Shown here: in pieces, positions 20,001 to 63,507 of the stretch
Position numbering within the stretch: position 1 is the first letter of the stretch
Layout of the letters: each line of letters begins with the position of its first letter
Origin: Nymphaea colorata
Lineage: Eukaryota > Streptophyta > Magnoliopsida > Nymphaeales > Nymphaeaceae
DNA: 64,000 nucleotides
NCBI RefSeq assembly: GCF_008831285.2
Contig: NC_045145.1
Span: 21,406,040 to 21,470,039 of the forward strand
Direction of reading: 5' to 3'
Notes under the pieces: generated by a model
Told to the model about the DNA's origin: nothing
Databases searched by the model: none
What the model saw: only the letters and a program-made list of their open reading frames with translations
Made by a program: the position numbers and the translations under genes

Positions 20001-23000
20001 ATGGCTATAAGCGGCCCATCTTCTTCCCCTCAGTAAGCATCTCTCTCTCTCTGAATCTCTCCCTCTGAATACTAATAATTATCCATGGCGTCCAAAATAT
20101 CTGTGTGGTGCCTTGGATCGGATGCAGGTACAGCAACAGCAAGGCAAATATCGTGCCTTCTTCGGGGATCATCCAGAAAGCATGGGCCTGCATCTCAGGC
20201 ACTACCCAACAGCCTTCTTCTTCTTCAACGACCCAATTGCCCTTCCCCTGCTGGGAGTTCTCCAAGTCGACGATCGTGGTATTTAAGAACGCAACTACAC
20301 CGCCCGCACCAGTTATCGATGGCTCCAGCAGTAGTGCTCCTCTGGTTCCAGTGGAGAGATCAGGCCACTTTGGATTCCTCCTCACCGAAGACAACAGCAG
20401 TATCAGCCTCCACAACGCCGCTCTTTCCTGCTTCAATTCGCTTCTCCCCAACTTCAAGGAGCAATTCCTTCCTTACCTGCAAAAACGAGAGGTACTATGA
20501 GAAATCATGCATCAGAAAATTATTGTCAGTATCTTTTGCTTGCATCCCCATCACTTCATGTTCAATACCCTTCTGGAATTTTAAACCTCCATGTTCAAAA
20601 TCGTTAATTTTAAGCAAAATTTTCGTTAAGATATGTGAATTTGAGGTATAATAAGGATTTCAGGTTCACGGTTTTCAAATTTTTAATCTTGAATTTAAGT
20701 TGAGCCTCAGTTTATATCAGACCTTCCAATTTAAGATTCAAAGTAATCAAACGCCTGTTCTAAGTTAAAACAAAAAAAAAAGCCCTTGAAACTTGGCCCA
20801 TTTTATGATGCATGTAATTTCAAATAGCTTGGTGGTTCAATTATTTGTATGCTCATGCACATAAGAACATTACCCTTCACAATGGCTCCTTGGACTTACT
20901 TGTGTGGATTGTCTCCAAGGACATCAAAGCCGAAGAATGCGGTAAGATTAATCCCATTAGAAACGGCTGAAGCTTTGAAGGAGGTTTCCTTGCTGAGCAA
21001 GAGACTTGCATATGGAAGGCTTTTACAATGTTTTGGACTGGAAATTTTCATTTTCAGGCTTACCTTTTTCCAATAATGTTTAAAAGAAGATCACTTTCTG
21101 CCATTTTCTCAAACGCCGCACTTTTTATAAAAACTGTCGAATAAGGGTATGGACTGGTTTTCTTTTTGGAAACCTACGAAGCAAAAGACATAGCTAAAAT
21201 GGTAAAAATGGTCGTCTAATGATTGAGACGAAAAATATTAGAAAAGTTGAGGCTGATATTTGATACTTTTTAATTAATGAAACTTCATTTCTGGCCTTTA
21301 TTCGAAAGTTGTGATGAAAAGTATGGCCTACGATTATTAATAAAGAAGATACTCTCTTCCGAGAAGTTATGGGCAAACATTAAATTTGAAAATGAAAATG
21401 TTAAGAAATGATCTTCTTCACTTTTTTTTTTTACCGATTCAGCTGAATCAATGAACCGGCCGATTCATCCAATGGGCAGCCTCACCAATTACGTGACAAT
21501 TAGTTCTCTAGCTTGTAACAGTTACTGAGCTGACGTTCCATTTTCCTTCCACATTGTAGAAAAATCAGCCACCGCTCCGCCCGCTCATACTGGCGGGACA
21601 GTCGCTCTGGGGCTCCGTCGCTGCCTTGTTCACTCTGTGGCTTTTGAACAACCGGCACAAGTCTGCACCCAGGCCCTTGTGCATCACCTTTGGCTCCCCT
21701 TTCATAGGAGACGAAGGTCTTGCGAAAGCCATCTGCAAGTATGATCTGTGGAAGGTTGGATTCTGGCATGTCCTCTGCTTATACGGACACGACTTCCGGC
21801 GAATTTCCACCAGCATTGAACAACAATTCAGGCCATCCGGCACCTATTTTCTCTGCCCAGAATTAGCTGCTTTCGTATGCGTTAGTGACCCGGATTTGGT
21901 CGTCCAGTTGCTGCAACGTTGCTCAGAGGAATCAGCAGGAAGATCTCATGATCAGATAAATATTGAATATGGTGGGTTGTTAACACGACACAAAGAGAGG
22001 GCAATTAATGGAGAGCGAGATGAACCACGCAGCGGTGAGTCAAGGCCGGCAACCGGCGTGGTTCCACAGCTAGTAGCGATGGGAATCAAGGACGATCATC
22101 CGGTATGTATACTAGCTAATTTTTGGGTATTCGAAATTTCTGCTCGTGAAGTATTAATTTAAACCCCAAAAAGGTTCTATTTCCTTTTTAAGAGAAAAGA
22201 GAAATATAGTCGGAATGGCTGGTATTAGAAATTCTTTTTCTAGTAGAATCTATATCTTATCTGCAATATTGAGAGCTTGCCTTTTTTGCCTACCCATCTT
22301 CTGCAATCTTTTCCTTCGCCCTTCCTTCAAAACTACGGTTGGAATTCTTACTTAGCTGATTCTGTTGGCTCTGGCATCATGAACTGTTAGGCTTATGCTT
22401 CTATTGCTGAAGCCTTGAAAGTGGAGCACAGTGTGCCGCAAAATGCTCCTTCCTCTCGGGCTCTCTACAAAGTTAAGAAGAACATGGCCCAGTTGGAATG
22501 GTACAAGAAAGCCTGCGAAAAGGAAGGCGATAACTATTATGACGCTTACAAGAGGCGAAGCCAAGAACAGGACATAGATGCTCAGATCCCCATGAGCAAA
22601 CTCATGAGCTACTGGGAGAAGGAGGTGATGAGAGCCGAAAAAAAGCCGCACACACCGGATTTCCCCCTCCGGGACAAGTATCTGTTCGCCGGAACGAACT
22701 ACAGGCGACTGGTCGAGCCACTAGCCATTGCCAAATATTATAGGAAAGGCGATGAGACGAGTTCTTACATGACCGCTGGTCAAAGGGATCACCATTTTGA
22801 GAAGCTTGAACAATGGGCAGGGATACATTCAGCGAGGGGAAGGAGGGACGAAGCTGCGAGCCTAACCGAAGACTCGTGCTTCTGGGCTCGTGTGGAGGAG
22901 GCCAGACGGAGCATGAACAAAGAGGCTGAAGGAGCCATGGATGAATTACAGGAATTTGAGAATCAAGTGATGAACCTGATTGGCAGGCTTGCGCTATCGC

Positions 23001-23155
23001 CGGAGGTATTCCTAGAGAAGAGCACATTCATGAAATGGTGGGAAGAGTATGATCAGAAGCGCCTTACTCCCAATTCACCTTTCACTGAGTTTATGAGGGA
23101 AGAGAGGAACCGTCATTTGTTCTACTCACCAGAAGCAGTTAATAGGTACAGGTAG
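20001..23155 (+). CDS. SAG101-like: SAG101-like EDS1-family protein, first copy (4 exons)
   Basis: Exons 20001-20032, 20128-20491, 21560-22102 and 22391-23155 join in frame to 567 residues (Arabidopsis SAG101 is about 540). Residues 1-313 form the lipase-like domain, with FTLWLL and LCITFGSPFIGD typical of the family. Residues 314-567 form the EP domain, with MAQLEWYKK, YYDAYKRRS, NYRRLVEPLAIAKYY, DSCFWARVEEA and FMKWWEEY, all diagnostic of SAG101. SAG101 binds EDS1 and, with helper NLRs of the NRG1 type, carries signals from TIR-domain receptors. The protein is a signalling partner and is not expected to be an esterase. The nucleophile elbow reads GQSLWG, so Ser147 is kept but the following Gly is replaced by Trp149. 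The gene converges on the TNL at 24499-29018. The start is set by the short first exon, which needs transcript proof. Confidence 0.88.
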
Positions 23156-23941
23156 ACCTTCTCCCTAACGATGATGAACCATCTCTCTCTCTCTCTCAGT
23201 CTCTCTCTTAAGTCTCGCCATATATCTCCCCATTTTCGCCTCTCTCTCTCGGTTAAGGATCCGTCTTTTCTTCTATCCTCATTCACTGTCTCAAACTTTG
23301 CTTTGCATTCACGGAAGAGGGCTGACTAGACAAGCTTCAAAAGAGCCTAAACTTACTGGGGAATCAAGGTGATCAGCAGATTGTGTTTCCCCTCTACCCT
23401 GCGCTTTAATCAAATCGTGTATGATGATTAGTCTTTCATTTTCAGAATTTTATTGATTTGAACTCTGTTTTTGTACTGGTTTGGTGAGGGCTTTATTGAC
23501 TGTTTATTAAATAGATGGGATTTTGGGTTCTAAGAGTGTTCAATGGACGCATTGTTTGTCATCAATTATTGACTTTATGTCTTGCTCTTGCCCTCTCTCA
23601 CTGTACTGTGCTGCCGGAGGACGCCTCTATGCCATGTCCCCTCTTTGGTTTCCCCTTCCCCTTTCGTGTTTACTTTTTGCCCCCAGTGATATTGCCGGAA
23701 TCCTTTGCCCTTATTGATATTCAAAGGGTAGGATTTGAACTGCAGATGATAAATTGTTTCATGCGTGAAGAGCCCCTCTTGGCAAAGGAATGAAAGCGGT
23801 GTAAGAACCCCACTCTTGGCTAGCTGCCATTTTAATTTAACAATTTCTAGAGCGATTCTCTGAAAATGAGGATTGATTTCTTGCTTAAGAACACACAAGA
23901 GAACAATATGTATAATAGCCGATATTAATACATGCACATAC
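23156..23941. other. 3' flank shared with the other SAG101-TNL units
   Basis: Follows the SAG101-like stop codon. It has CT runs and then sequence that recurs at 31190-32850 and 57180-58810: GAGGACGCCTCT near 23618, CAAAGGGTAGGATTTGAA near 23724, and ACACACAAGAGAACAATA near 23890. Frames within it are short and inconsistent between copies, so I treat it as non-coding. It marks the junction of the repeated unit. Confidence 0.65.
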
Positions 23942-24413
23942 TGTTGGGATTTCTCCCCTTATGCATATACAAAAGTATATGCTCTAAACAAAACAGGATC
24001 ATGCTCATGCTAAATCATTGAAATAAACATAACCTTAAATTTAAAGCGGAAGCGTACCTGAATCCATCTGAAGAACTGGACGGTAGATCGCGGTAGGATC
24101 TTCCAGGGTCTTTGCGGTGCGCTTGAGGTCTCTCTCAGATGGGGAAGAGAAAAACCCTAGAAACCAATGTTTTAGGCAACCATTGCACGACCCCAGGGAC
24201 CACTACCATTTTATAGTGAGGACAATTACGAATTCCGTCCATCAAAGAGTCCGTAATTGCGTACTGGTATCTATACATTTTAAAATTACCCCATACCATC
24301 TAAAATGACGTAATATCCTAAAATGCAATCACTTAAGCGGATATTTACGTTAAGACAGCCATAATGTCTGAAATTTCTAATTGACATATGCCGGTCCACC
24401 AAATGATCTTACA
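23942..24413 (-). mobile_element. Solo LTR between SAG101-like and TNL 3' ends
   Basis: This 472-base insert is absent from the matching flanks of the other two units. It begins TGTTGGGATTTCTCCCC and ends ATCTTACA. Read on the minus strand it runs from TGTAAGATCA to AAATCCCAACA, a typical copia-type LTR with a TATAAAA box inside. It is flanked by CATAC (23937-23941) and CATAT (24414-24418), a five-base target duplication with one change. No internal domains are present, so it is a solo LTR. Confidence 0.65.
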
Positions 24414-24498
24414 CATATATGTAAGGAAATCTGTTTACATAAAGTCGTAAACTATCATATCTTTATTAATCTTCTATTCATTAAAGATGTGAACCCCA

Positions 24499-27400
24499 TC
24501 AACCCGTCGTCTCTGGTCCTTCAAACCATAAAGAAATAGTACCATTTACGACATGATCAGCGATCCGCAGGAACCTCAACTTTGGAAGAAAACGAATGCT
24601 TTCAGGGATTTTGTTGACTCCAGTTTGTGAGAGATCAAGGTGAAGTAGATTTTCCAGTTGCGCTAGTTTGGCATCAGGGGGCGCTTCAATTCTGCTACAC
24701 CCTCTTAATGATAATTCCTGAAGTTCTCTCAGCGACCAAACACAATCAGGCAAACTTTTTAGATCCTTGCAACTCAATGAGAATTTATTCAGCTTCTTCG
24801 GCAGCGTAGTTGAGTCGGATAGAGCGGTAGGATTATCGATCTGCAGTTCTAATTTCTCAAGTCCTTCCAATTGTTTGATTGAATCAGGTATGGCTGTGAT
24901 CCTGGAGCACTTAACTTTCAATTGTCTAAGACTTCTTAGAGAACCAATCCACTGGGGCAACTGTTCAAGTTTTCCAGTTGCAAATTCAAAGATCTCAAGG
25001 CCTTTTAGTTTTTCAATCGCGTCAGGTAATGATTCAAGATTTTCACACACTAGTTTCAGTGTCTTCAGTCCTTCCAATGACTCAATTGTGTCTGGTAGAT
25101 TCTTGAGACTCTTGCTCTCAATTTCCAATTCTGTAAGCTTCTCTAGTCGCCTACCCTTAACCCAAGCAGGCAAAGCTCTGAGTTGGTCGCATTTTAGCGA
25201 GAGAATGTCCAGATTTTGTAGTCTTATGATGCTATGTGGAAACTCTTGAACCATATGATCTGTTAAATAGAATTCTCTTACTGCTTTACATGATTTATCA
25301 GATAGAAAGTCAAGCACCATGCATGATGAAACTCTCCGCACTTCCACTTCTTTACTTAAGTCAACCTCATCCCCTATCATTCTCAAGGGAGTTCCAAACA
25401 TTTTCAGCTTCCCTGAGGAGAACCAACCAGTTAATGAGTCAGGTAATGGCCCCAACCATTTGCAGCGTTGTAACGGTAGCTCAGAGAGGCATGTCAGCTG
25501 CCCCACTGAAGCAGGTACTTTTCTTATCGCTGTATCATTAAGGCTAAGCTCCTTCAATGATCTCAAGTTCCCTATTTGTTCCGGCAAAGATGAAAGTTTT
25601 GCACACCATCCAAGATGAAGGACTTCAATTGACCCTAAATTGCAGATTGTATCAGGTAGCTCCTCCAATAATGTGCATGTTCTCATATCCAATGCTACTA
25701 AGCTTTTCAGTTCTCCTATGGATCGATGAACACTAGTAAGTTTTTCACACCGCCGGAGTGTCAAGTCCACCAGGCAGCGGAAGTTGCAGAAATCTGGTGT
25801 CCTTGTCAGATCCGTGGAACTCAGATCAAGAACTTTTAACTTCTCAAAGACCTGCAAAATTTTTCATTTTGATTAAATTTCAAGATTGGGAACTTGAAGC
25901 TATCTGATACGTGTCTACATAACCAGAAAGAAACAGCACCAACCATGTCTCCAAAAAAAGATAGGCTTGCCAAATTGCAATTAGATAAGTTGAGTATCAC
26001 AAGCTTGCGAAGGTTAAGGCCCGACGGTGGAGACTCAAAGGAACACCTTGGCAGTCCCAGCCACAACAATTCCTTGGGAAAATAATGAAAGTTGTTCTTG
26101 AAGTTTATTCCCTCCATGTGAAGCAATCTTAGATAATGCATGTTTCGAAAACATTCAACACGTTTATGTAGTTCTTTCCCTTCCTCCACTTCTTTATTGA
26201 GAATGATCCCTGTTACTTTACTGCAGTCCGGTACCTGAAGATAAAACTAGCATGGCCGTCATGATGTCGTCTCCTATTGTTACGGGAAAATCCATCGGCA
26301 AAGAATTGTCTCCCTACTTCAAAAACCACTTGAAATGAGGGGGTGCGAGAGAGAGAGAGAGAAGAGAGACTTACCTCATCTCTTTCCAGTAGATCGAAGA
26401 TGTCATCCGTAGTCCAAACCCTGCTTAATTTCCAACTCGGCGGTACCTCGCTCCTTCGCAGAACTATCTCCCTTCCCATATTTCTGAGGAGATCGTGCAT
26501 GTGAAATCGGTTTTGCTTATCCAGACTAATGAGGGACCTGTCCTGGAGGAGTTTAATTGCAGATTCCGAATGAAAACGGCAGGCCTCCCAGTAGTAGTGA
26601 GTCGATCTTCCGCAGTCTGCACCAACAAAGAAGCAGCATATGTCTAAGAAAATCTCCTTCTCTACGTCCGGAAGTCCATCATAACTAATTTTTAGTTTGC
26701 TCTCAACATCTTCAACTGGAATCTCTTTTAGTTTTTCTAGTTCACGTCTCCAGACTTCCATGTTTCTTTTGCAAGACAAATGAGGACCAAGCACCTCAAT
26801 GGCTAAGGGCAGACCTCCAGCAGTTTTAGCAATCTCTCTTAACATGTCGAGCTCCTTTTTTGTTGGTTGCCTTCCCTTAAGGACATGGCGCACCAGAAAC
26901 TGGAACGATTCTTCCTCGTCCAATAACTTGGGCTTATAAATTTGACTTTCCTCGATATCCTGTTTCGACAGTAGACTCTTATCTTTCGTCGTGATGATGA
27001 TCACGCTCCCTAGACCAAACCAATCTCGCGCGCCAGCCAATGCTTGTAGTTGTTCTACACGATCAATGTCATCTAGAACAACCAAGACCTTCCTACACCT
27101 TGTCGTCTCTTTGATCTTGTTTATTCCAGCGTCGGTGCTGCCTATGGAATGTTTGAAACGGTCTTCTTTGCCCATTATGTCATAGATAAGTTGCTCCTGG
27201 CATTTGACGCCTTCGCCTTTCCGAAACTTCTCCCCTACATCTGAAATGAAAGTGGAAGCGCCATGAAAATCATGGAACAATTCATTGTAAACGGCTTTGG
27301 CAATTGTGGTCTTTCCGATGCCAGGCATTCCTTGAAGCGCGATCATGTTTACGCCCTGTCCATCTTTCTTCAAGAGCTTCCTTACTTCTTGAACTTGACC

Positions 27401-28129
27401 TTCCATTCCAATTGGGTACTTCGCAACGTGCAGGGGACTCTTGCCTAATTTTGATTGCACCTCCTCAACAATAATGTCAACTAATTCTGCTTCGTCCCTG
27501 CAGTTGATAGAAGCGAAGAGATTATGTAGTAAGTGATGAGGCAATCAATGAAGGCATGTATCAGCAAAAAATTGGCACTTGGAGACATCCATTGGCTATG
27601 CCTAATTGTTTATGGGGGGTCGTATATACTTTATAAATATTTATACTTTACAGTTGCATTACACGGAATAAAATTAGATAGAAGGACGAGAACCAAAAAT
27701 CAAGAACCAGTTATTTCAAGATTTTGATGAATCCAGGAATCCGGAAGAAAGTAGAAAACTGCTCAATACTTAAAGCTGATGTAAACTCAAGTTGGTTAAA
27801 GACTCTGGCCATGTTTTCTCTGAACCACAAAGGCACAGATGTAATTTAAGTTGTGCATCTCTCAATCTCTAAAACTGGCTTGCAACCAGATAGCAGGCAA
27901 TAATGAACTTGTCAATATTTGAAATTGCCTTTGGCAGTCATGTCATCTCTGGTATGAGCTGCCCATCTCTATTTCTCTTACGGTGATTCTAAAGCTAGTA
28001 GACATTAAGAGACGCCAAGGCTGGGTGATCACATTTTTTTTTATCCTTCTCTTTTAGTCATCCATCGTGAAGGATCAGATGACTCTAATGAGAAAGTTGG
28101 GTGACTTTGCTTTGTACAGTCACTATTTA

Positions 28130-28182
<53 letters not shown>

Positions 28183-29018
28183 GAGTGAATCTAAAAAGTT
28201 AGTCATTTAATTTTTTAAATATATTTGTTATTTCGTACTTATTTATTATTTCACGTAAATGTGGTAATGGTTCTCTTTACATGCTTAAAAGGACACATGG
28301 CACCGGTCAACCCAAAGCAACTGGTAAAAATTGAAAATGTGGGAACTAGGAGAGAAACTAAGAGGAAGAGAAAGACAAACCCGTTGGCGTTACTCTTGAG
28401 AGTGAACCCATGAATGCTGGTTACTTTCCGCAACGCTTTCCTCCACTTCTTCTTCTCATCCGCACTCGCACTTCGGAACCGACCCTCAGAATGCCTGTAC
28501 CAGCACCGAACGTCGTCCGGTTCTACGTCGAAGAATATGGGCACGATATCCACGCTCTGGTCCGTCTTCATCACCTCCACCATCTCAGTGATCTCCTTCA
28601 GGCACCAAACGGAGTCGGCGTAATTCTTGGAGAATATGGGCAGCAATATCATCGATTCTTTGATGGCCTTCAACAAGTTTTCGATAGGTTCCCCCTTCCC
28701 TAAATCGCGGTTGTCCATGAAAGCGCTCACATTACTCTGTTTAAGGGCCCTATACAGATGGCTGACGAATCTGTTTCTGGTGTCTTTCCCTCTGAAACTC
28801 AAAAAAGCGTTGTACAGGAATCGCTTATCATCATTCTCATGTGCTGACGAAGAAGCGGCTCCAATAGGTGGTGACGGTACATCGCCTTTAAGCTCGGTAG
28901 CTCCCTCATCCGATGGAGAGACCGGCGAATGGTTGTTCCCTACGGCCAGTGCCCTGATCATGACAAGCAGGAGGCCGATGAAGATGATACTGGCCTCCAG
29001 TGTTGTAATGCCGTCCAT
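24499..29018 (-). CDS. TIR-NBS-LRR immune receptor, first copy (TNL-1)
   Basis: Exons (coding order) 29018-28381, 27497-26375, 26234-25944 and 25851-24499 give 1134 residues. The start at 29018 matches the starts of the other two copies. An in-frame ATG at 29066 would add 16 residues. Domains: hydrophobic segment (about residues 7-25, predicted membrane anchor), acidic linker, TIR (about 67-205, with AFLSFRG and the putative NADase Glu142 in WCLKE), NB-ARC (P-loop GMPGIGKTT 269-277, kinase-2 LVVLDDID, IIITTKD, GLPLAIEVLG, MHD at 546-548), then LRRs to the end. TNLs detect pathogen effectors, and their TIR domains make nucleotide signals read by EDS1-SAG101 or EDS1-PAD4. The LRR exon is the most divergent of the three, at roughly 80% identity. 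No extra domain follows the LRRs. Intron 1 holds a MITE and a TA run. The gene converges on a SAG101-like gene 1.3 kb away. Confidence 0.92.
28010..28270 (-). mobile_element. MITE with TA run in TNL-1 intron 1
   Basis: Contains TTTTAGTCATCCATC, GGGTGACTTTGCTTTGTA and a TA microsatellite at 28132-28179. The same words recur in intron 1 of the other TNL copies and in the broken TNL. It lies in the first intron between the TIR and NB-ARC exons. Non-coding, ends not resolved. Confidence 0.45.
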
Positions 29019-29171
29019 TCCTTGATCTCTCGGCCGGCAATTAATTATCTCACCGCCAACCAGCACTTTCGAGCAGGCGAGGCGAGCAATCGGGCGGCAA
29101 CTGTTGCTGCAATCGAGGGAGAGAGAGAGAGATGTGGCTTGAGTTAAGCCGCAGCTGGGGATGGTGCTAAT

Positions 29172-29178
29172 CTATATA
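29172..29178 (-). promoter_or_regulatory. TATA box of TNL-1
   Basis: TATATAG on the minus strand, about 155 bases before the start codon. It lies in a flank conserved with the second TNL copy, where the same place reads TATAAAT. A CT-rich 5' leader follows. Confidence 0.5.
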
Positions 29179-30777
29179 ATAAGATAAGGGAAGATCAGTT
29201 GAATCTCCTGCCATGGGTTCCACGGGCAGAATCTCGTAAGGGGGAAGAAGAGATGCATATATATACGGCAAGATCAACGCCTGCCGTACGTAGGAAGGAA
29301 GAAATATAGAGGAGGAGAGAGTCTTCCACTGCATCTGCCAGGCAGCTTCGTCAATGGCAAGACCTCGATTAATCAATACCCACAACGAAATAATGGCTCG
29401 GCTCCACAGATCAGCAGCCAGGCAGTCCTAGCAACTCCCACCTCCCTTCTCCCACGGGAGACAAGAAGACCATTACTCCAACTAATTACATCTTCCGGTG
29501 AGATGACAACTCATTTTCCTTCACAATTAATAGCACCATCTGGCTCGAGTGTGGTTCAACTTTGCCTCGAGGAATAACTGTGAAAAGAAAACTTAAAAAG
29601 TTTAATTTATCTACAAATTTTCTAAGTTACCTCTTTATTTTTATCTTTTTTTTTTTTTTCACTGGCATTGGCAGCCAAGGTTTCAAAACCTTTGTGGAAG
29701 CAGAAGAGCCTTAATGGGAGAAATAAATTCCTTCACATGTACCTATCAGGTTCCCTCGATTTACAGAAGAGAAAGAGGATTCCCATTGACGATTTGGGTC
29801 AAACAATGTAATATTTGCACGTTAAATTCGGTCGTTTTCTCAAGTCGGTGAAGTTTGTCGTTTCCTGCGACAGAGTTCACAGACTTCACGTGGTGCCAAT
29901 CTTAGTGGGGCATTTTAATGGGAAGGCCATCTCTTGGTAAGTTTCTTCTTATGGGCAGGGCAGTTTCGTCTTTTGATAAAAAAGAGAAAAGGGATTAGGG
30001 AGCGTCTCCCTATTGGCCAGCCTACTGGGTTGGGGCTGCTTTCTTATTAATTCATGTTTATTCTTATATAAATATTTTATATTCAAGTCCACTAACTCGA
30101 TTCAAACGAAAAAATATTTTTTTAATATAAAATAAAGATTTTTTAATACAAAATATATTTTTAATAATAAAATATATATTAATATTAAATAAAAATAATA
30201 AGAAAATTAATTGAACCGAATAGAAAAATTTTTTTTGGGCCCAAACCCAATCAAGCAAAGGGCCGACTACTCGTCAAGTACTAGGCCGTTGCCCAAGCTT
30301 AACTACCATATGTGGTCTTCCAATTAAAATTTCTTACGTTTTGATATGATCATATGCATTCTCCAATCTTTTGCAGACTCTTTTTCTCTCTCCCTCTTTC
30401 TATTTCTTGTCCTTATGCATTTTCATTTTATCGACTCTTAGATAATAAGAATCATGTGACCATAATTTAATTTCATACTGTGATGCTTGTAACGCAATTA
30501 AGGTTGAAATGTGCAAGTTTATGGCAATAAAAAGTAGAGAAAGCTCAGGCACATATTCAAATTAACAAACAATCAATCATTCAACAGTTGCATTTCCCTT
30601 CCTCTATCCACCTGTCTTTCAAAATTTATCGACCCAAGTTCAGTTTGGACTTGACGTCGGAGTTTTTGTATGTTTTACATCTCTCTACTTTTCAGAGCTA
30701 GGCCTAATTCCACATGCAAATTTTATTGGCATAAAATTTGAGGGTTTTCACGATTCTGGTTAACGATGGCAGTTTCA
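29179..30777. other. Inter-unit DNA: upstream-like remnant of a SAG101 unit
   Basis: About 29490-29830 is homologous to 38590-38960, upstream of the second SAG101-like gene (shared words CATC.TCCGGTGAGATG, AGTTTAATTTATCT and ATTCCCAT.GACGATTTGG). About 30330-30440 matches 39540-39640 (TTCCAATTAAAA, GATATGATC, ATGCATTC), also upstream of that gene. The SAG101 coding body that should follow is absent, which marks a deletion derivative. The open frame interrupted here has no known domain. Confidence 0.55.
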
Positions 30778-30960
30778 GGTTTGTCATGATCATGCTTCCA
30801 TTTCACGAACATATAGAATTTGAAGAGTTGAAGTCCCTGGCCACAGAGGCGTTACTGAAAATGAAGAGCGATGGAGAGAGGCAGCCTGCACCTTACCTCG
30901 ACAGAGGTGTGGAAGAGGAGCTGCTGCGAGAGTGATCTTCAGGAGAGCTGCTGTGAGATG
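30778..30960 (+). pseudogene. Unassigned exon-like remnant, copy 1
   Basis: After a TTTCAG acceptor-like site, an open frame reads VMIMLPFHEHIEFEELK and continues to VEEELLRE before a stop at 30933-30935. A second copy at 51434-51600 keeps the same frame with HEHIEFEELK and VEEELL but lacks about 60 bases in the middle. I do not recognise the family. The two copies sit in the same place, between SAG101 upstream-like DNA and a SAG101 tail, so they were duplicated together. It may be a fragment of an unrelated gene captured in the cluster. Confidence 0.4.
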
Positions 30961-31038
30961 ATGATCGAGTGCGAGCCTTTTCCATGGGCCAAAAAAAAGC
31001 CCCTGTTGGTTATGGGAAGGGGATATAAACAACCATCA

Positions 31039-52505: not shown

Positions 52506-55500
52506 ATGGCTCAAAACACACCTATGATTCTGACAGATGATTCAAATGCCATCGAGATTTCAAATCCCTTTTGTGTACACCATTTGGACAACCCTGCTGT
52601 TATGCTTATGTCCCAGCCCCTCACGGGAGATAACAATCCCACATGGAGAAGGTCCATGACAATGGCGCTCTCTACTAAAAAGAAGTTGGGATTTGTCAAT
52701 GGTAGTATTCCTAGACCTCTTGCCTTAGCTATACAGTATCAGTCATGGGTGTGATGCAATGACTTGGTTCTTTCATGGATCATTAACTCATTATCAAAGG
52801 ATCTGGTGAGTAGTATTATCTATGCCACCACTGCGATGGAGGTCTAGCTGGACCTGCAATAACGTTTTACACAAAAGATGGCTCCCTATAAATACCAATT
52901 GAAGTCTGAAATCAATTGTCTCTCTCAAGATATGCTTTCTATTGCTGCTTATTTCACCAAATTTAAGGCATTGTGGGATGAGTTGGGATCTTATGAACCT
53001 TTGCCACCATGCACATGTGGTGTGTTGAAAGAAGTATCAGGTAGAGAACAAGAAGAAAAGTTAATACATTTTTTGATGGACTGAAATGAGACATATAATG
53101 TGATTCGTGGACAAGTTTTGTTGACTGAACCACTACCTACAAATGGGAAAGTATATAATCTAATGTTACAGAAGGAAAAACAGAGAGAAGTGAGAGTTCA
53201 ATTTTGCTACTGATCATGTTAGTCTAGCTGCTAATTCAGATTTTAGAGTGAACAAAAATAGAAATTGGAAGAGACCACAACTCAATTGTTCTTTTTGTCA
53301 AGCAATAGGGCGTACTAGAGATAGGTGTTATAAGTTAAATGACTTTCCACCTGATCATGTTAGTCTGGCTGCTAATTCAGATTTTAGAGTGAACAAAAAT
53401 AGAAATCAGAAGAGACCACAACTCAATTGTTCTTTTTGTTAAACAACAGGGCGTACTAGAGACTTTTTGTGCAATTCTCTAGTATGAATGATGTTGTTGT
53501 AGGGAGTGTTCATAGTGATGTAGAAGCAGTAAGTCATGGAAAGGAGGCCATCAAAGATGCGGCGCCTACCAACAGTTCAAACAACTTCTTAAGGAGAATT
53601 TTGTCCCGATTTCTTCTTCATCTCAACTTAACCTTGTTGGTATGTCTATTTCTGATCCAAACCTTTGGATATTAGATAATGGTGCCAACGACCATATGTC
53701 CTCCTCTGTGAACTTCATGACCAGTGTTGATGAACTTCACTCTCCTTATCCCATTCGTTTACCAGATAATAATCTTGTTCATGCAACACATAAGGATGAA
53801 CCTAAATTTTTTGATCAACTACTTCTTAAACATGTTTTCTACATACCTCAATTTAGGTATAATCTATTGTCCATTAGTCAACTGACCAAGTCATCTACCT
53901 GCTATGTATGCTTTGCTTGTGACAAATGTTACATTCATGACCAGAATCCAAGATGATGATTGCAGTATGTGAAATGCAAAATGGACTCTACTTCCTTAGA
54001 CCAACTGTGAGCAAACCTATAGCTTTGTCTCTTACCAGCACACAAACTGAAATTTGACATTTAAGGCTTGGTCACCCTTCAGCTTGCAAAAATATAATGT
54101 TTTCAGCTCTTGATCCTTGCATAGAAATGTCAAAAACTACTTGTGAAGTTCACTTGTCCAAGCAAGCTTGCTTGCCTTTTCCGATTAGTAATACCAAATC
54201 TGAGTGCTTGTTTGTTCTAATTCACTGTGACATTTGGGGTCCTTATAGTCAAGCGTCTATTTCAGATGCACAATACTTTTTCATAATTGTTGACGATCAT
54301 TCAAGAGCCACATGGGTCTATCTCATGAAGCACAAGGATAAAACAAAGTACCTTCTTCAATGTTTCTTTAAAATGGTTGAAAATTAGTTTCATATATCTA
54401 TTAAAAGGATTAAGACAGATAATGGAGCTGAATTCTTTTCAAATGAAATGCAAAAATTTTTACTTGTTGAAGGTACCTTGCATGATCACAGTTGCGTCAA
54501 CACGCCTCAAAAAAATGGGGTGGTTGAACGTAAACATAGACATTTGTTAGATGTCGCTAGATGTTTAAGAAATCACACATGCTTGCCTTTGAAATTTTGG
54601 GATTAATGTATACTTACAGTTGTGTATCTTGTTATCACCCCCGTGTATTCGGGTGTCTTTGTAATGTCATCTCGAAATCCAAATTTGATCATAGAGTTCG
54701 AAAGTGCATTTTCATGAGGTATCCATATGGCCAAAAAGCATACAAAGTATATCTTGAGTCTCACAAAATTATGTCAGGTCATGATGTAAAATTCTATGAA
54801 TCTGTCTTCCCATTCAAAGACCATAATGATGAAAAACATGTTGTTGTGTTACCTCTTTCTATTCCTGATAAAGAGCTGGATAACATAGTTGATGCAACAA
54901 ACATAAGTTTAGACATTCGCACATCTGAATCTTTCCAAACTCAGCCTGAACGAAGTGAGAATGCCCATGAAATTTCATCAAATTTGATCTTGGTCGCTCT
55001 CAAAGAGAACGCAGACCATCAATCCTACTCGAAGACTTTTATTGTGGAATTGGAATTGCTTATTGTAACAAAACATAATAGTAAATTTCCTTTATCTAAG
55101 TACATGTCCTTTGAGAGTTTCTCTACACCTCATAAAGCATTTCTAGTGGCCATCTCTAAAGATTTTGATCCATCTTCCTTCAGTCAAGTGTTAAGCATCA
55201 ATGTTGGCGTGACGCCATGGCTATTGAACTTAAACCACTTGAAGAGAATGAAACATGGGATCTGGTGCATGCTTCAAAAGGCATAAAACCCATAAGGTGT
55301 AAGTGGGTTTACCGAATTAAATACAATTCTAATGGAATAGTTGAGAGGTTCACAACAAGGCTTGCGGCCAAAGGAGATGTCCAAGTTGAAGGCCTTGACT
55401 ATCATGACATTTATGCTCCAGTGGTGAAGCTTGTCACAGTGAGGACTTTGCTTGTTGTTGCAGCCCAAAACAATTGCGTGCTGCATCAAATGGATGTCCA

Positions 55501-56650
55501 TAATGCATTCTTACATGGCGATTTGGACGAAGATGAATATATGACATTGCCATCCAGCTATGGCAATGAAGGGAGACTAGAATATGCAAGCATAAACAAT
55601 CTTTATATGGGGGCTTCAAGTGCCAAGAAACTGGTTTTCAAAGTTTTCCACAACACTTATAGACTATGGTTTTAGTCAATCAAAAGCTGATTGTTCTCTC
55701 TTCACACTGCTCAACAAAAATTGCTATATGGCTGTCATTGTCTATGTAGATGGCTTCATAGTAGTAGGAAATGATGAAAATCAGATCAGGTTGTTTAAAA
55801 AATACTTAAGCAACAAGTTTCATATGAAGGACCTTGGTTTACTTAAGTATTTTTAGGCATCGAATTAACAAGAACAAAGCATGCATTTTTTCTATCACAG
55901 TGTAAATATACATGTGATATCCTAGATGAATTCAGCCTTTTAAATGTCAAGCCAGTTGGCTGTCCTTTAGAACAAAAACAGAAGTTTTGTGATGAAACAG
56001 ATGAAGCTCTTAAGGAACCATCTGCATACAGAAGCATTGGAGGAAGACTTATATATCTAACCATCACTGGGTCAGATATAGGTTTTGCAGTTCATGTGCT
56101 TAGTAGGTATATGCACAATCCTAGACAGGTTCATCCAAATGCAGCTTTGCAAGTTGTTAGATACTTGAAGGCTAATCCTGGTCAAGGAATCATGTTATAT
56201 GCTAATACTAAGTTGCAGCTGGTTGCTTATTGTGATGCAGGCTGGGGCATGCAAAGAAACTGGGAGATGAGTAAGTGGCTACTGCATTTATTTGGGTAAA
56301 AGTTTGATTTCGTGCAACACAAAAAAGCAACAATCACTATCTCAATTTTCAGTTGAAGCTGAATATCGAGCTATGGCTAATATGGGTTGTGAGATAGTGT
56401 GGTTAAAGGTGCTTCTTGTTGATTTACGGGTCGTTCATAATTGTCCAGCATAATTGCATTGTGATAGTAAAGCGGCACTACACATATCTGAAAATCCAAT
56501 ATTCCATGAGTACAAAAAGCATGTTTAAATTGACTGTCAATACGTGAGGGATCTAGTTAAAAAACATATAATTCAAGCAGCAGATATATCATCAAAGCTT
56601 CAACCTGCCAATTTATTTACAAAATCTCTAGCGAAGGAGCAGTTTCAGTT
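52506..56650 (+). pseudogene. Copia gag-pol remnant
   Basis: Gag-like sequence begins at the ATG at 52506 (NPFCVHHLDNPAV, TGDNNPTWRRSM). A zinc-knuckle region at 53280-53335 has CSFC...C with the expected His replaced by Arg, and is followed by a second, broken copy 145 bases on (53357-53462). The protease site reads LDNGANDHM (Ser replaced by Asn). Integrase core words CDIWGP, VDDHSRATWVY and KTDNGAEF lie at 54220-54440. Reverse transcriptase words CKWVYRIK and [13 protein letters not shown] lie at 55300-55520, and the catalytic YVDD is changed to YVDG near 55747. RNase H words AYRSIGG, YCDAGWG and AEYRAMAN lie at 56020-56380. Several in-frame stops and frame changes separate these blocks. 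Confidence 0.88.
53213..53462 (+). repeat. Tandem duplication in the gag zinc-knuckle region
   Basis: A block starting TGATCATGTTAGTCT at 53213 recurs at 53357 with few changes, including the CAATTGTTCTTTTTGT zinc-knuckle coding segment. The period is about 144-145 bases. In the second copy the knuckle frame ends in a stop. Confidence 0.8.
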
Positions 56651-56672
56651 TTTAAAATCCAAACTAGAGGAG

Positions 56673-57053
56673 TGTTGAAGATTATTCACCATGAATTTTA
56701 CAATTATGCTTAGGGAGTGTTGAAGATTATTCACCATGAATTTTACAATTATGCTTATATGACTCAGCCTCCATGCTGAAATATCTGTTAGAATACTTGC
56801 TGTTTTGTAAGGCTGGCTCAAAATATCCCTAACAGAATTGATAATGTGGCAGATTGCGGAAGGTTCCACAACTATTGGTTTTTCTTGGAATCTTATTGTA
56901 ATTTTCTGTATCAAAATATAAGAAATTTTATTTTCTATTCATTATTTCTTAGCAGTGTATAAATATCCATTCGTCAAATGAATGAAAGGGTGTGGCTTTG
57001 TTTTCACTGGCCTTCAACTTTTCATAATCTGTTTTTGTTAAAATCTGTCCACA
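56673..57053 (+). repeat. Right LTR of the copia element with duplicated start
   Basis: The LTR proper is 56718-57053 (TGTTGAAG...TCCACA). The first 45 bases are tandemly repeated just before it (56673-56717). A purine-rich polypurine tract AACTAGAGGAG (56661-56671) precedes the first copy. The duplication may come from slippage or mispriming during reverse transcription. Confidence 0.85.
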
Positions 57054-57077
57054 AAGGAGACATAAACACCAATTATT

Positions 57078-57142
57078 TTTACTGAGTTTATGAAGGAAGG
57101 GGCGAACCTATCATTTGTTCTACTCACCACAAGCAGTTAAGA
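57078..57142 (+). pseudogene. SAG101-like 3' tail remnant, unit 3
   Basis: TTACTGAGTTTATGAAGG and TTGTTCTACTCACCA match the final codons of the first SAG101-like gene. It corresponds to the scar at 31039-31112 in unit 2 and lies 20 bases after the copia element. The rest of the SAG101 body is absent. Confidence 0.72.
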
Positions 57143-58933
57143 AGTACTGGTCGATATTCTGCCTAACGATGATGAACCATCTCTCTCTCTCTCAGTCTCT
57201 CTCTTGTGTCTCGCCATATCTCTCCCCGTTCTCGCCTCGCCTCTCTCTCTCTCGGTCTATGTGTCCCTCTTTTCTTCTACCCTCATTCACTGTCTCGGAT
57301 TTTGCTTTGCATTCACAGAAAAGGGCTGATTAGACGAGCATCACAACAACCTAAACTTATCGGTGAATCAAGGTGAGCAGGGATTGTTTTTCCCATCTAT
57401 CCTATTATTTCATCAAACCCGTGTATGATGATCAGTCTTTTGTTTTCAGTTTTTTATTGATTAGAACTCTGTTTTTATGTGGGTTTGGCGAGAGCTTTTT
57501 TATTGTTTATATGGGAGTTGGTTTCTAAGACGGTTTAATGGAGGCACTATTTGCCGTACTTCACTTATTGACTTGACCTTTTGCTGTCCCTTCACTCCGT
57601 GCTGCTGGAGGACGCCTCTCTCCCCTTTTCTGTTTCTCCTTTCCCCCCAGTGATATTGCCGGCGTCCTTCACCACTTCCTTCCCTCTCAAGTGTAAGTGT
57701 TGTTTCTCCGATGCCGGTAGTTAGCCTCCGTCGGTTCTCCTTCTCATCCGGTTGTTCGTCCCCTTTTCGCCCTCAGATTCATCCATTCGGCTCTGGCTTC
57801 CTTGCCATGATGCGTCTAGAGGATCTTGCAGGATGCCGTTGTCCTCTGCGTGTCTTAATTTCTGCTGCCTCCCATCTGCCTGCGCGGGTTATCTTCTACT
57901 GCTTCCATTTGTTTCTTTACCCTTTATTAATCTCGAAATTTGGTCATTGTTCTATTGACGCAGAGAAGAAGAGTCTTCAATACCTTTTCTGGCTTGTCTG
58001 TAAATTTTCAAAATGGTACTAGCTACCATGCAGCTTCTTCTCACAAGATTTTTTTTTTAGATGCCCTGGCAGACAATGGCAAACACGTGCACAAAACAGC
58101 GTATAATAATTTGGTCATTCACAATAAACTCATATACACAAGAATAAGCAATTTGATAACTGCAAATTGAACTGATGTTGGGATGGGGTCAATTTTTTAA
58201 TTTGTTGTTTTGAGCAATGACATGGTGAAAGTTTCATCATGTGTAGATTCCTCCATTTTTTTGGCTTTTAGTGACTTGAGGGGTCCTCAATTCGCCCATA
58301 TGAGTCAACTTCTGTAGTACCTCAAAGTAAAGTTAGCCTTTTTTTCTCGGATAATTTTTCCGGTGATACCTTGACCAGAAATGAATATTATAAGAAGTTG
58401 CTATCATGTGATGTTGTTGATACTCAAATGGTAGGTTTCGAAGTGCAAATGATAACAAGCGGAAGAGCTGAAATTGTTTCAAGCTTGAAAAGCCCCTCTT
58501 GGCTACCTGCCATTTTAATCACAATTTTGAGGACCTTTCCCAAAATACACCATATGATATGTTGATGCCGAAGAGTTTCATTTCTAGCAATATCGTTTTT
58601 GTGGTACCAAGACATCTCTCACAAAATGCAATGTGTTGCGCCCACCAGACAAACGAATTTATCTGAATGGCTACGTCTTCTAGCAAATTTATGCAGAAGG
58701 CAGGCGTATCACATTTCCGTGACTAACATATACTTTGAACAATAAAAATCACATTTCTCGGATAATAACGATTGATTTTTTTTTTCCCCTTAAGAACACA
58801 CAAGAGAACAATACAATAGCATATATTAATGCAGACACAAATATATAAGGAAGTCCGTTTACGCAATAATCATAATCTATCATATCTTTATTAATCTTCC
58901 ATTCTTCAAGGACGAGATCCCCATCGTCTGCAA
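57143..58933. other. 3' flank of the SAG101-TNL unit, third copy
   Basis: Nearly the same sequence as 31113-32951, with small deletions. Frames are not conserved between copies, so no gene is called. The close match continues across the end of the TNL into its LRR exon. Confidence 0.6.
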
Positions 58934-60743
58934 TCATTCAAACCAGAGAGTAGTATCATTTCCAACATCAGTGATTTGAAGAGACCTCAATTTTGGAAGG
59001 CAACAAATGTTTTTAGGGATTGTCTTGACCCCAGTTCGTGAGAGATCTAGGTGAAGTAGATTTTTCAGTTTCCCCAATTTGTCATCTGGGAGCGCTTCAA
59101 TTCTGCCACACCCTCTTAATGAGAATTCCTCAAGCTCAACCAGTGACCAAACACAATCAGGCAAATTTTCTAGATCGTTGCAACTTAAAGAGAATTTCTT
59201 CAGCTTCTTTGGCAGCGGAGCTGAGTCGGATAGAGCTCTAGGATTGTCGACATGCAGTTCTAATTTCTCAAGTTCTTCCAATTGTTTGATTGACTCAGGG
59301 ATACCTTTGATACTGGAGCACTCCACTTTCAAGTTTCTAAGACTTCTCAGAGAACCAATCCACCGGGGTAACTGTTCAAGATTTCCAGTTGCAACTTCAA
59401 AGGTATCAAGGCTTTTTAGCTTTTCAATCGAGTCAGGTAATGAATCAAGACTTTCACACACTAGTTTCAGTGTCTTGAGTCCTTCCAACGACCCAATGCT
59501 CTCTGGTATATTCTTGAGACTCTTGCTCTCAATTTCCAATCCTCTAAGCTTCTCTAGTTGCCTACCATTGATCCACACAGGCAAAGATCTGAGTTGCTCG
59601 CATTTTATTGTGAGAATGACTAGATTTTGTAGTCTGCTTATGCTATGTGGAAACTCTTGAACTGTAGGATCTGCTAAACAAAATTCCTGTACTAATTTAC
59701 AGGATTCATCAGGTAGAACGGCAAGCAACTTGCATGATGAAACTCTCAGCTTTTGCACTCCTTTACTTAAGTCCATCTCGTCCTCTATTCTTCTCAAGGG
59801 AGTTCCGAACATTTTCACCCTCCCCGAGGAGATCCAACCAGTCAATGAGTCAGGTAATGGCTCCAACCATTTGCAGCGCTGTAACGATAGCTCCAGGAGG
59901 CTTGTAAGCTGCCCCACTGAAGCAGGAACTTTTCTTATCGCTGTATCATTGAGGCTAAGCTCCTTTAATGATATCAAGTCTCCTATTTGTGCGGGCAAAG
60001 ATGAGAGTTTTGCACACCATCCAAGATGAAGGACTTCAATAGACCTTAGATTGCATATTGTATCAGGTAGCTCCTCCAATACTGTGCATGTTCTCAAATC
60101 CAATGTTACTAAGCTTCTGAGTTTTCCTATGGATGAATGAACTTTAGTAAGTTTTTCACACTGCCGGAGTATCAACTCCACCAGGCAGGGGAAGTAGCCG
60201 AAATCTGGTGTCGTAGTCAGATCTGTGGAACTAAGATCAAGAACTTTCAAATTCTCAAAGACCTGCAAAATTTTCCCTTTTGATTAAATTTCAAGATTAG
60301 GAAATTGAAGCTATCTGATACACCACTATGTAACAAGAAAGAACAACACCAACCATGTCTTCAAAGAAGGATAGGCTTGCCAAATTGCAATTAGATAAGT
60401 TGAGTATCACAAGCTTCTGAGGGTTAAGGCCCAATGGTGGAGACTCGAAGGAACACCTTGGCAGTCCCAGCCACAACAATTCCTTGGGAAAATAGTGAAA
60501 TTTGTTCTTGAAGTTTACACCCTCCATGTGAAGCAATCTTAGACGATGCATGTTTCGAAAGCATTCAACACTATTACCTAGTTCTTTCCCTTCCTCCACT
60601 TCTTTATTGAGCATGATTCCTGTTACTGCACAGCTCGGCACCTGAAGATAGAACAAGCATGGCAGCTATGATGTCTCCTTACCATAAGGTAAAAATCCAT
60701 CGGCAAAGAATTGTCTCCCTAGCTACTTCAAAGACCACTTTAA

Positions 60744-60801
<58 letters not shown>

Positions 60802-63507
60802 TGGGGAGAAAGGAGTGAGAAAACAGAGCTTTACCTCATCTCTTTGCAGCAAATCGAAGATATCACGCCTAGACCAAAGCCTACTCTTCTCCCAACTTTT
60901 GGGTACCTTGCTTCTTCGCAGAACTATCTCCCTTCCCATATTTTTGAGGAGATCGTGCATGTGAAATCGGTTTTGCTTATCTAGACTAATGAGAGACCTG
61001 TCCTGGAGAACTTTAATTGTAGGTTCTGAATAAAAACCACAGGCCTCCCAGTAGTAATGAATTGCTCTTCTGCAGTCTGCACCAACAAAGAAGCATGATA
61101 TGTCCAAGAAAATCTCCTTCTCTACGTCCCGAAGTCCATCATAACTGATTCTCAGTTTCCTTTCAACATCTTCAACTGGAATCTCTCTTAGATTCTTTAG
61201 TTCAATTCTCCATTCTTCCATGTTTCTTTCGCAAGACAAAAGAGAACCAAGCACCTCAAGGGCTAAGGGCAGACCTCCAGCAGTTTTAGCAAACTCTCTT
61301 AACACGTCGAGCTTCTTTCTTGTTGGTTGCCTACCCTTAAGGACATGGCGCACCAGAAACTGGAACGATTCTTCCTCGTCCAATAACTTGGGCTCATAAA
61401 TTTGGCTTTCCTCGATATCGTGTTTCAACAGTAGACTCTTATCTTTTGTCGTGATGATGATCACGCTCCCTGAACCAAACCAATCTCGCGCGCCAGCCAA
61501 TGCTTGTAGTTGTTCTACACGATCAATGTCATCTAGAACAACCAAGACCTTCCTACTCACTGTCGTCTTTTTGACCTTGTTTATTCCAGCATCGGTGGTG
61601 CCTATGGAATGTTTGAAACGGTCTTCTTTGCCCATTATGTCATAGATAAGTTGCTCCTGGCATTTGACGCCTTCGCCTTTCCGAAACTTCTCCCCTACAT
61701 CTGAAATGAAAGTGGAAGCGCCATGAAAATCATGGAACAATTCATTGTAAACGGCTTTGGCAATTGTGGTCTTTCCGATGCCAGACATTCCTTGAAGCGC
61801 GATCATGTTTACGCCCTGTCCATCTTTCTTCAAGAGCTTCTTTACTTCTTGAACATGACCTTCCATTCCAATTGGGTACATCGCAACAGGCAGGGCAGTC
61901 TTGCCCAATTTTGCTTGCACCTCCTCAACAATAATATCAACTAATTTTGCCTCGTTCCTGCAGTTGGTATCCACAACCATAAGATGTGGGAAAGATAGAA
62001 GCGAAGGGATTATGTAGTAAATGATGAGGCAATCCCTGAAGGCGTGTATCAGTAAAAATTTGGCAGTCGGCCACATCAATTGGCTATGCCTACAAGTTTA
62101 TGGGAAAACTGTTCAACACTTAAAGCTGATGTAACTCATGTAGGTTAAAGACTCTGGTCGTCAGAGTGATGCTTTTTTCTGAACCACAAAGACAAATGTA
62201 ATTTTAAGTTGTGCATCTCTCAATCTATCTGTAAAACTGGCTTGCAACTAGATAGCAGGCAATAATGAACTTGTCAATATATCGTACTGGGTTTAGCAGT
62301 CATGTGATCTCTGGTATGAGGTGTCCATGTCTCTTTCTCTTGAACGGTGATTCTAAGGCTAATGGACATTAAGAGACACCAAATCTAGGTGATCAATTTT
62401 TTTTATTGTTTTTTCTCAGAGCCACCGATCATGATAAATCACCACAGTTGAGTAACTTTGCTTTGTTTCAAGCTTTGATGGAGAAGGAAAGGTTGCAATA
62501 TATATATATATATATAACTTTAGCTATCAAAGTCACTCAACTATGTTCATCCATTTAAAATATATAAATGGTTGAAAAAAAAAGTGAGAGCTAATATTAA
62601 ATGACAAAAATACAAATTACCTTTTCTCTTTTTAATTTTTTTGTTAACTGTTGATCATTGATCGAACGACTCTTATTAAATGGTTAGTGATTCGCATACA
62701 TATTTATGCATATTTGTTATTTTATACTTATTTGTTATTTCATATAGATATATGCTATCTCATAAACCCACAGTAGCTAGTAAAAATTGAACAGATGGCC
62801 CACAATACCGAAACCCGTCCACCCAGTTAAGCTACACATCATTTGGAAAATTAAGAGAGAACTAGGAGGAAGATATAGACATACCCGTTCGCGCTGTTCT
62901 TGAGACTGAACCCATGAATGCTTGTTACTTTCCGCAACGCTTTCCTCCACTTCTTCTTCTCATCCGCACTCGCACTTCGGAACCGACCCTGAGAATGCCT
63001 GTACCAGCACCGAACGTCGTCCGGTTCTATGTCGAAGAATATGGGGACGATATCCACACTCTGGTCCGTCTTCATCACCTCCACCATCTCAGTGACCTCC
63101 TTCAGGCACCAAATGGAGTCGGCGTAACTCTTAGAGAATATGGGCAGCAATATCCTCGATTCTCTGACGTGCTTCAACAAGTTTTCGATAGGTTCCCCCT
63201 TCCCCAAATCATTGTTGTCCATGAAAGCGCTGACGTTACTCCGTTTAAGGTCCTTATACAGATGGCTGACGAATCTGTTTCTGATGTCTTGCCCTCTGAA
63301 ACTCAGAAATGCGTCGAACAGGAATCGTTTATCATCATTCTCATGTGCTGACGAAGAAGCGGCTCCAATAGGTGGTGACGGTACATCGCCTTCAAGGTCG
63401 GTAGGTCCTGGAGAGACAGGCGGCTCCCGTGTGGTCACTACCCTGATCGTGTACAGCAGCAGGCCAATGAAGATGATAAAGGCCACCAGTATTGTAAAGC
63501 CGTCCAT
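58934..63507 (-). CDS. TIR-NBS-LRR immune receptor, third intact copy (TNL-3)
   Basis: Exons (coding order) 63507-62885, 61957-60835, 60641-60354 and 60262-58934 give 1120 residues. Residues about 5-23 are a hydrophobic stretch (LVAFIIFIGLLLY) and are followed by Arg residues, as for a signal anchor with the rest of the protein in the cytosol. The TIR has AFLSFRG and WCLKE. The NB-ARC has GMSGIGKTT, LVVLDDID, IIITTKD, GLPLALEVLG and an intact MHD. FLDISCFF replaces the FLDICCFF of the other copies. The LRR exon differs from TNL-2 at only about 12 of 443 residues, while the rest is much less alike. About 20 bases holding the TATA box are missing upstream compared with TNL-2. Predicted role as for TNL-1. 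No domain follows the LRRs. Confidence 0.92.
60745..60801. repeat. (GT)n(GA)n microsatellite in TNL-3 intron 2
   Basis: Same position and composition as the tract in TNL-2 intron 2, but with a longer GT part. Confidence 0.9.
62390..62790 (-). mobile_element. MITE copy in TNL-3 intron 1
   Basis: Family words AGCTAATATTAAATGACAAAAATA, a TA run at 62497-62515 and TTTGTTATTTCATATAGATATA. Shorter than the copies in TNL-2, apparently by internal deletion. Confidence 0.45.

Follow-up and report, generated by a model that had tools for sequence, protein, structure and literature searches.

A putative co-duplicating unit of TNL receptor and SAG101 genes in Nymphaea colorata

Introduction

Nucleotide-binding leucine-rich repeat (NLR) receptors with a TIR domain (TNLs) are generally regarded as forming, together with the EDS1 family, a many-to-one network whose members are not linked. 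An NLR beside a non-NLR immune partner is known from Pto and Prf, a linked kinase and NLR. The same kind of neighbourhood is described here for a 64,000-nucleotide stretch of Nymphaea colorata DNA (contig NC_045145.1, here C8, positions 21406040-21470039; hereafter the window), in which TNL genes lie among genes for SAG101, a member of the EDS1 family. In Pto/Prf, the effector is met by the partner kinase itself, whereas SAG101 at this locus would be a relay acting after the receptor.

Receptor-helper clusters and head-to-head receptor pairs offer the closest comparison. The NRC0 helper-sensor cluster of asterids, as presented in the available part of PMC11371149, resembles this locus in that receptors stand beside a signalling component that they need and the linkage is old. 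Head-to-head NLR pairs such as CHS3/CSA1 (accessible text of PMC12856790) and RPS4/RRS1 are divergent neighbours with a shared upstream region that are inherited together, as are the genes described here. Tandem clusters of the EDS1 family itself are reported in the available sections of PMC12069366: one gene separates SAG101a and SAG101c in soybean, three soybean EDS1 genes are linked, and Arabidopsis has an EDS1 pair. SAG101 and EDS1 stand in tandem in those clusters as they do in Nymphaea. At the level of signalling, activated TNLs make nucleotide products by their TIR activity, and ADPr-ATP or di-ADPR serves as the ligand of EDS1-SAG101, which also associates with NRG1, according to the parts consulted of PMC12856790, PMC9153377 and PMC8185089.

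Results

Organization of the TNL-SAG101 array

Self-comparison of the window and a three-way alignment revealed three repeat units, U1 (23080-29846, spanning the SAG101a end and TNL-A), U2 (31017-38985) and U3 (57054-63964), with overall identities of 81.7% (U1-U2), 80.4% (U1-U3) and 90.9% (U2-U3). All four TNLs (A, B, C, and D) lie head-to-head with a b-type SAG101 gene or its relic, and the junctions are homologous in every case; in three of them (A, B, and C), an a-type SAG101 or a relic of one is also placed tail-to-tail with the TNL, a position at which an EDS1 piece adjoins TNL-D. The TNL-SAG101 linkage is best read as one by descent, older than the TNL copies, because TNLs and SAG101 genes or relics repeat as homologous units. 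We therefore lean towards the view that the block is a tandem array of a co-duplicating unit made up of a b-type SAG101 (+), an a-type SAG101 (+), and a TNL (-). The interleaving of TNLs with SAG101 genes, which a first-pass annotation of the window had pointed out, proved to be a real linkage with a repeated head-to-head and tail-to-tail layout.

The array extends beyond the end of the window. From the repeat pattern, a b-type SAG101 was expected to the right of the window as the neighbour of TNL-C, and such a gene, SAG101b2, was found there and is open. Two pairs, TNL-B/SAG101b and TNL-C/SAG101b2, are open on both sides. The proposal of the first-pass annotation that receptor and partner are carried together gained from this duplication of the pair in two open copies; the part of it that counted PAD4 as a linked partner did not stand. 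The shared upstream regions are 1.3-1.7 kb long (1.6-1.7 kb in the two open pairs and 0.8 kb at the broken TNL-D); the start of TNL-C is separated from that of SAG101b2 by 1,556 bp, and the region between them is homologous to that of TNL-B/SAG101b. Inside the latter, positions 39228-39463 are 79% identical to DNA downstream of an EDS1-type gene (C8:21841993-21842220) and are possibly a dispersed repeat.

Two a-type tails and two b-type relics in the window had been overlooked in the first-pass annotation (Table 1), as had a second EDS1 piece at 15.1-15.6 kb and the continuation of the array past the window. Just the final a-type SAG101 codons are retained in U2 and U3; because the matches of both units to SAG101a start at 23080, the a-type body was probably lost once, before U2 and U3 split. 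The b-type relics beside TNL-A and TNL-D have approximately 560 bp in common (30440-31002 matches 50992-51599). This stretch occupies the site at which the body of a b-type SAG101 would be expected.

Table 1. Features of the array and its surroundings (window positions; SAG101b2 is given in contig coordinates)
Feature	Position	Strand	Details
Second EDS1 piece	15090-18764	+	EP end 15090-15594, then stretches matching DNA downstream of EDS1-cluster genes
SAG101a	20001-23155	+	Exons 20001-20032, 20128-20491, 21560-22102, 22391-23155; 567 aa, open, predicted
TNL-A	24499-29018	-	Exons 29018-28381, 27497-26375, 26234-25944, 25851-24499; 1134 aa, open, predicted
b-type SAG101 relic	30310-31002	+	Head-to-head with TNL-A; 5' leader 30310-30391 matches SAG101b 39531-39613
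a-type SAG101 relic	31040-31109	+	23 near-terminal codons; match continues in the 3' flank as far as 31686; tail-to-tail with TNL-B
TNL-B	32952-38002	-	Exons 38002-37377, 35956-34840, 34656-34372, 34280-32952; 1118 aa, open, predicted
Shared upstream region, TNL-B/SAG101b	38003-39735		Parts homologous to the TNL-C/SAG101b2 and TNL-A/b-type relic regions
SAG101b	39736-42334	+	Exons 39736-40068, 40861-41397, 41504-42334; 566 aa, open, predicted
Broken EDS1-like gene	44698-46096	-	End of lipase domain and first part of EP domain
TNL-D, broken	46096-50059	-	TIR-exon pieces 47047-47244, 49648-49743, 49751-49945, and intron-1 sequence
b-type SAG101 relic	50780-51913	+	Head-to-head with TNL-D; 50780-50958 matches the 5' leader of SAG101b and 51808-51913 its 3' flank
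Copia long terminal repeat (LTR) retrotransposon	51972-57053	+	LTR divergence (Kimura two-parameter, K2P) 0.083
a-type SAG101 tail	57077-57147	+	Match continues in the 3' flank as far as 57645; tail-to-tail with TNL-C
TNL-C	58934-63507	-	Exons 63507-62885, 61957-60835, 60641-60354, 60262-58934; 1120 aa, open, predicted
SAG101b2	C8:21471102-21473036 (beyond window edge)		Head-to-head with TNL-C; 563 aa, open, predicted

Receptor genes

The gene models are predictions, obtained by joining stop-to-stop frames and splice sites by hand. The models of TNL-A, TNL-B, and TNL-C consist of four exons each, with GT/AG splice sites and without internal stops, and Pfam matches to TIR, NB-ARC, WHD_ROQ1 (the ROQ1-type winged helix), and LRR were obtained in all three. 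TIR, NB-ARC, and LRR thus occur together within one open gene in each case, as is characteristic of the TNL class. Reading by eye located WCLKE and GIGKTT in all three proteins, and MHD in TNL-A and TNL-C with VHD instead in TNL-B; we take these to be the motif of the TIR catalytic glutamate, the P-loop, and an NB-ARC motif, respectively. The proteins are 81-91% identical (926 of 1118 aligned residues for A-B, 908 of 1120 for A-C, and 1010 of 1115 for B-C). At the N-termini (29018, 38002, and 63507, minus strand), the TIR domain is preceded by approximately 60 residues that include a hydrophobic stretch, noted by eye and a possible membrane anchor. The C-JID family was not among the Pfam matches after the LRRs of these three proteins. 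TNL-D gave no NB-ARC or LRR match; it consists of TIR pieces only, the TIR exon being split by approximately 2.4 kb. The three intact TNLs and the broken one listed in the first-pass annotation were accordingly recovered, and so were its two intact SAG101-like genes, SAG101a and SAG101b, which are open and both nearest to Arabidopsis SAG101 (AtSAG101).

SAG101 genes

The layout of the EDS1 family, an N-terminal lipase-like domain followed by a C-terminal EP domain, is seen in both genes, with Pfam E-values for Lipase_3 and EDS1_EP of 6e-9 and 1e-63 in SAG101a and 2.5e-14 and 1.7e-56 in SAG101b. The top PDB match of each is AtSAG101 (216 and 222 bits, compared with 133 and 130 bits for PAD4). 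The phylogenetic tree of the EP domain, built on 15 rows that comprised 12 of the 14 EDS1_EP places of the genome and three Arabidopsis sequences, the AtEDS1 probe among them, placed SAG101a and SAG101b with AtSAG101 with support of 99/99; the inner order of the SAG101 group was unresolved.

The divergence between the SAG101 genes was estimated from nonsynonymous and synonymous rates (dN and dS, Nei-Gojobori method; w = dN/dS). SAG101a and SAG101b are just 43% identical (223 of 519 aligned residues). The saturated dS of 1.67, at which w is unreliable, and the w values of 0.32 overall and 0.18 in the EP half suggest that the two are old paralogues under long-term constraint. SAG101b2 and SAG101b share 518 of 563 aligned residues and differ at 45. 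Among the 59 changes between their genes, 46 are nonsynonymous, which is close to the neutral expectation of 0.72-0.78 (P 0.31-1.0; w 0.96). These numbers fit redundant or recent copies, and likewise a role as bait.

Order of events

TNL-A differs from TNL-B and TNL-C with a dS of 0.165-0.187, and the SAG101-TNL unit is read as older than this split. The dS between TNL-B and TNL-C is 0.085 overall, and truncation of the a-type SAG101 would likewise predate their separation. Along these two genes dS is not uniform, being 0.027 in exon 4 versus 0.135-0.137 in exons 1 and 2, and the exon 4 tract shows 94-99% identity (32952-34280 versus 58934-60262). Exon 4, which encodes the LRRs and would be expected to be the most diverse part, was thus homogenised recently.

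The target duplication flanking the Copia element is 5 bp long and contains one mismatch (51967-51971/57054-57058), and the sister unit U2 retains the undisturbed empty site at 31017-31021. The insertion into the relic of U3 is accordingly placed after duplication of the unit. Because the empty site survives and the element is younger than the unit duplication, Copia did not create the linkage. A transposon-driven juxtaposition of TNLs and SAG101 genes, named in the first-pass annotation as the case that would overturn its proposal, is therefore rejected for this element, the one that was recognised.

EDS1 pieces and PAD4

The broken gene at 44698-46096 had been taken for PAD4-like in the first-pass annotation and is reassigned here to EDS1. 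In the PDB search, its EP piece scored 83.9 bits with EDS1 versus 51.1 bits with PAD4, and its lipase piece 55.9 versus 20.6 bits; at the DNA level it matches an EDS1-type gene at C8:21.83 Mb with identities of 97% (over 245 bp), 87%, and 78%. The second piece, at 15 kb, is considered to be EDS1 because its DNA matches the EDS1 cluster with 80-91% identity. PDB and Pfam scans of one of its frames gave no EDS1-family match. A three-part tblastn search with the low-complexity filter off yielded 3e-9, whereas the best value among 200 shuffled queries was 0.008; the match was not reported when the filter was switched on.

The pieces at 15090 and 44698 have opposite orientations, and their ends coincide in a common 16-bp stretch of the EP exon. 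Because they share this break point, one EDS1 copy was probably once present within the array and was later split in two; two separate EDS1 relics are less likely. The pieces would be reunited if 15.09-44.71 kb were inverted, and such an inversion may account for the split, or the copy may have been divided by cut-and-paste, for which the uniform gene orientation on either side of the break speaks.

A PAD4 query of the whole genome, for which all 30 candidates were scored, gave 25 matches, and each of the 25 corresponded to a SAG101 or EDS1-type locus. PAD4 looks absent from the assembly, which suggests either loss in the plant or an assembly gap. This apparent absence parallels Eucalyptus grandis, for which only a PAD4-like fragment is reported in the available part of PMC9806590. 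If PAD4 is truly absent, EDS1-SAG101 would be the sole EDS1 dimer available.

Genomic context

The genome analysed comprised 407.8 Mb in 783 contigs. Its 14 EDS1_EP places were sorted by probe scores and the EP tree. They comprise six SAG101 loci on C8 (a, b, b2, c, d, and e, the last three lying beyond SAG101b2), one SAG101 and one SAG101 relic on contig C3, five tandem EDS1-type loci at C8:21822950-21860050, which is 0.33 Mb beyond the array, and the window's own EDS1 relic. Six of the seven open-looking SAG101 loci and all five EDS1-type loci are located on C8 within 0.44 Mb. Full models were made for SAG101a, b, and b2; the other four were judged from the matched exon parts, which contain no stop, and the matches of SAG101c and d include one stop each, before exon 2. 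The EP exons of the five EDS1-type loci are free of stops, and single stops occur in the lipase-side matches of two of them.

At least 151 TIR matches were found genome-wide (best 150 of 256 candidates scored), and the three on C8 among the matches listed are TNL-A, TNL-B, and TNL-C. When TNL-B was used as a protein query, other TNLs were 39-47% identical in NB-ARC, with values of up to 49% over short parts of the LRR, and no TNL-B-like TNL was seen elsewhere on C8 among the matches listed (best 41 of 1,521 candidates). The TNL lineage thus looks private to the locus. Judged by NB-ARC, the nearest other NLR on C8 among the matches listed lies at 22.24 Mb (best 123 of 672). The 20 RPW8-type (helper) matches, in which NRG1 and ADR1 types were pooled, are distributed over contigs C3, C4, and C9, with none on C8.

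No match to the TNL-B protein was found in the flanking DNA covered, which comprised 10 kb on the left, 40 kb on the right, 50 kb at the EDS1 cluster, and 10 kb at each C3 locus. A single one of the four EDS1-family loci in the genome was seen to have TNL neighbours. Under uniform placement, the probability of one or more of 46 TIR loci (149 TIR matches merged at 200 kb) falling beside any of these four loci was 0.014 within 2 kb, 0.021 within 10 kb, 0.030 within 20 kb, and 0.056 within 50 kb; the estimate is rough, post hoc, and ignores gene density, and gene-rich regions would raise it.

To the left of the array, two tandem XTH-type gene stretches (GH16, XET_C) occupy 9065-14073. Fragments at 2372-4590 resemble an acid lipase gene by eye, and Pfam scans of two pieces of them gave no match.

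Discussion

Proposed working of the locus

The structure, the homology of the units, and the order of events are observed in the DNA, and for the working of the locus we infer standard signalling. The TIR domains of an activated TNL of the array would produce nucleotide signals, which would be bound by an EDS1-SAG101 heterodimer; its SAG101 would be supplied by the array and its EDS1 by the EDS1-type loci that lie on the same contig at a distance of 0.33 Mb. The dimer would then engage an RNL helper encoded on another contig. The linkage would be kept chiefly through unequal crossing-over, by which the entire unit is copied, and co-regulation from the shared upstream region would be a likely added benefit. 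Partner choice is probably not private, because SAG101 copies come and go, whereas the TNLs stay.

Evaluation of alternative explanations

Several observations weigh against the proposed working of the locus. The count of W-boxes in the TNL-B/SAG101b upstream region was reached by 55 of 500 shuffles and their core count by 31 of 500, and a shared W-box signal, not being clearly enriched, was rejected. TNL-A is retained beside a b-type relic, the differences between SAG101b and SAG101b2 look neutral, with neither constraint nor directional change shown, and the array appears to stem from one linkage event by descent, with a P of approximately 0.01-0.06 for chance placement. As a selected trait, the linkage is therefore suggestive and not compelling. 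A fuller scheme, in which TNLs of a locus-private lineage and their SAG101 relays would be transcribed from shared upstream regions and evolve as matched units, the plant, having lost PAD4, would rely entirely on EDS1-SAG101 dimers, and the adjacent SAG101 proteins would serve as dedicated relays or guarded baits, seems improbable to us. A rival reading is neutral hitchhiking, whereby a TNL landed by the SAG101 cluster by chance, tandem duplication multiplied both, linkage would have no bearing on function, and any SAG101 would serve. The chance estimate (P 0.014-0.056), the loss of the a-type body from an identical point in two units whose TNLs persist, the neutral-like changes between SAG101b and b2, and the further SAG101 copies in the genome are in its favour. 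However, two whole pairs are still open after duplication, and the TNL lineage was not found scattered among the matches listed despite about 46 TIR loci, so that we regard hitchhiking as possible but rather unlikely.

The first-pass annotation had gone further in suggesting co-adapted alleles and specific pairing. In such a scheme, each TNL would signal best via the SAG101 on its shared upstream region and linkage would hold matched alleles together. A head-to-head layout like that of NLR pairs (as covered in the accessible text of PMC12856790), duplication of the pair as a whole, and the 45 of 563 residues at which the SAG101 proteins of the two pairs differ are what such pairs would lead one to expect. 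This proposal found no support, since the b-type neighbour of TNL-A is a relic, which leaves this receptor with no open b partner, and the 46 of 59 nonsynonymous changes between SAG101b and b2, with w near 1, correspond to neutrality and carry no directional signal; moreover, homogenisation of exon 4 in TNL-B and TNL-C (dS 0.027 versus 0.135 in exon 2) would erase pair-specific receptor differences. We consider it distinctly unlikely. Still harder to credit is a guard arrangement, with adjacent SAG101 proteins as baits or decoys for effectors that hit the EDS1-SAG101 node and the linked TNLs watching them. The many SAG101 copies (seven open-looking loci), the fast protein change between SAG101b and b2, and the tight linkage to receptors could be explained in this way, but drift of redundant copies gives the same numbers, SAG101b keeps its lipase-like and EP domains, and SAG101b2 has an EP match of 194.5 bits. 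A tandem array of a co-duplicating TNL-SAG101 unit is the reading that we retain.

Comparison with known systems

A back-to-back TNL/SAG101 pair copied as one unit looks unusual. No report of TNL-SAG101 linkage was met among the titles and abstract openings listed from the open-licence literature searched, which does not demonstrate that none exists. The account of EDS1-family tandem clusters in the available sections of PMC12069366 does not mention a TNL among them, unlike the array in Nymphaea. The locus makes it possible to ask whether TIR receptors have, or guard, dedicated EDS1-family relays, and whether the alleles of receptors and relays are transmitted jointly in crosses.

Both partners in the NRC0 cluster are CC-type NLRs (coiled-coil), whereas the partner here is a lipase-like EDS1-family protein; furthermore, according to the available part of PMC11371149, the NRC0 linkage is found in many species and the dependence of receptors on the helper was tested, whereas the present linkage is known from one genome and from the genes alone. 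With linked NLR pairs the array shares divergent neighbours, all four TNLs facing a b-type SAG101 or its relic and two of the four pairs being open. It differs from them in that only one member is an NLR: SAG101 is not, and it acts downstream of the products of the TIR enzyme, so that direct contact with the receptor is not implied. Because the partner is SAG101, we do not class the locus as an NLR pair. The nearest concept is a receptor-helper cluster or a head-to-head NLR pair, from which the Nymphaea locus differs in that the partner is a relay outside the NLR family.

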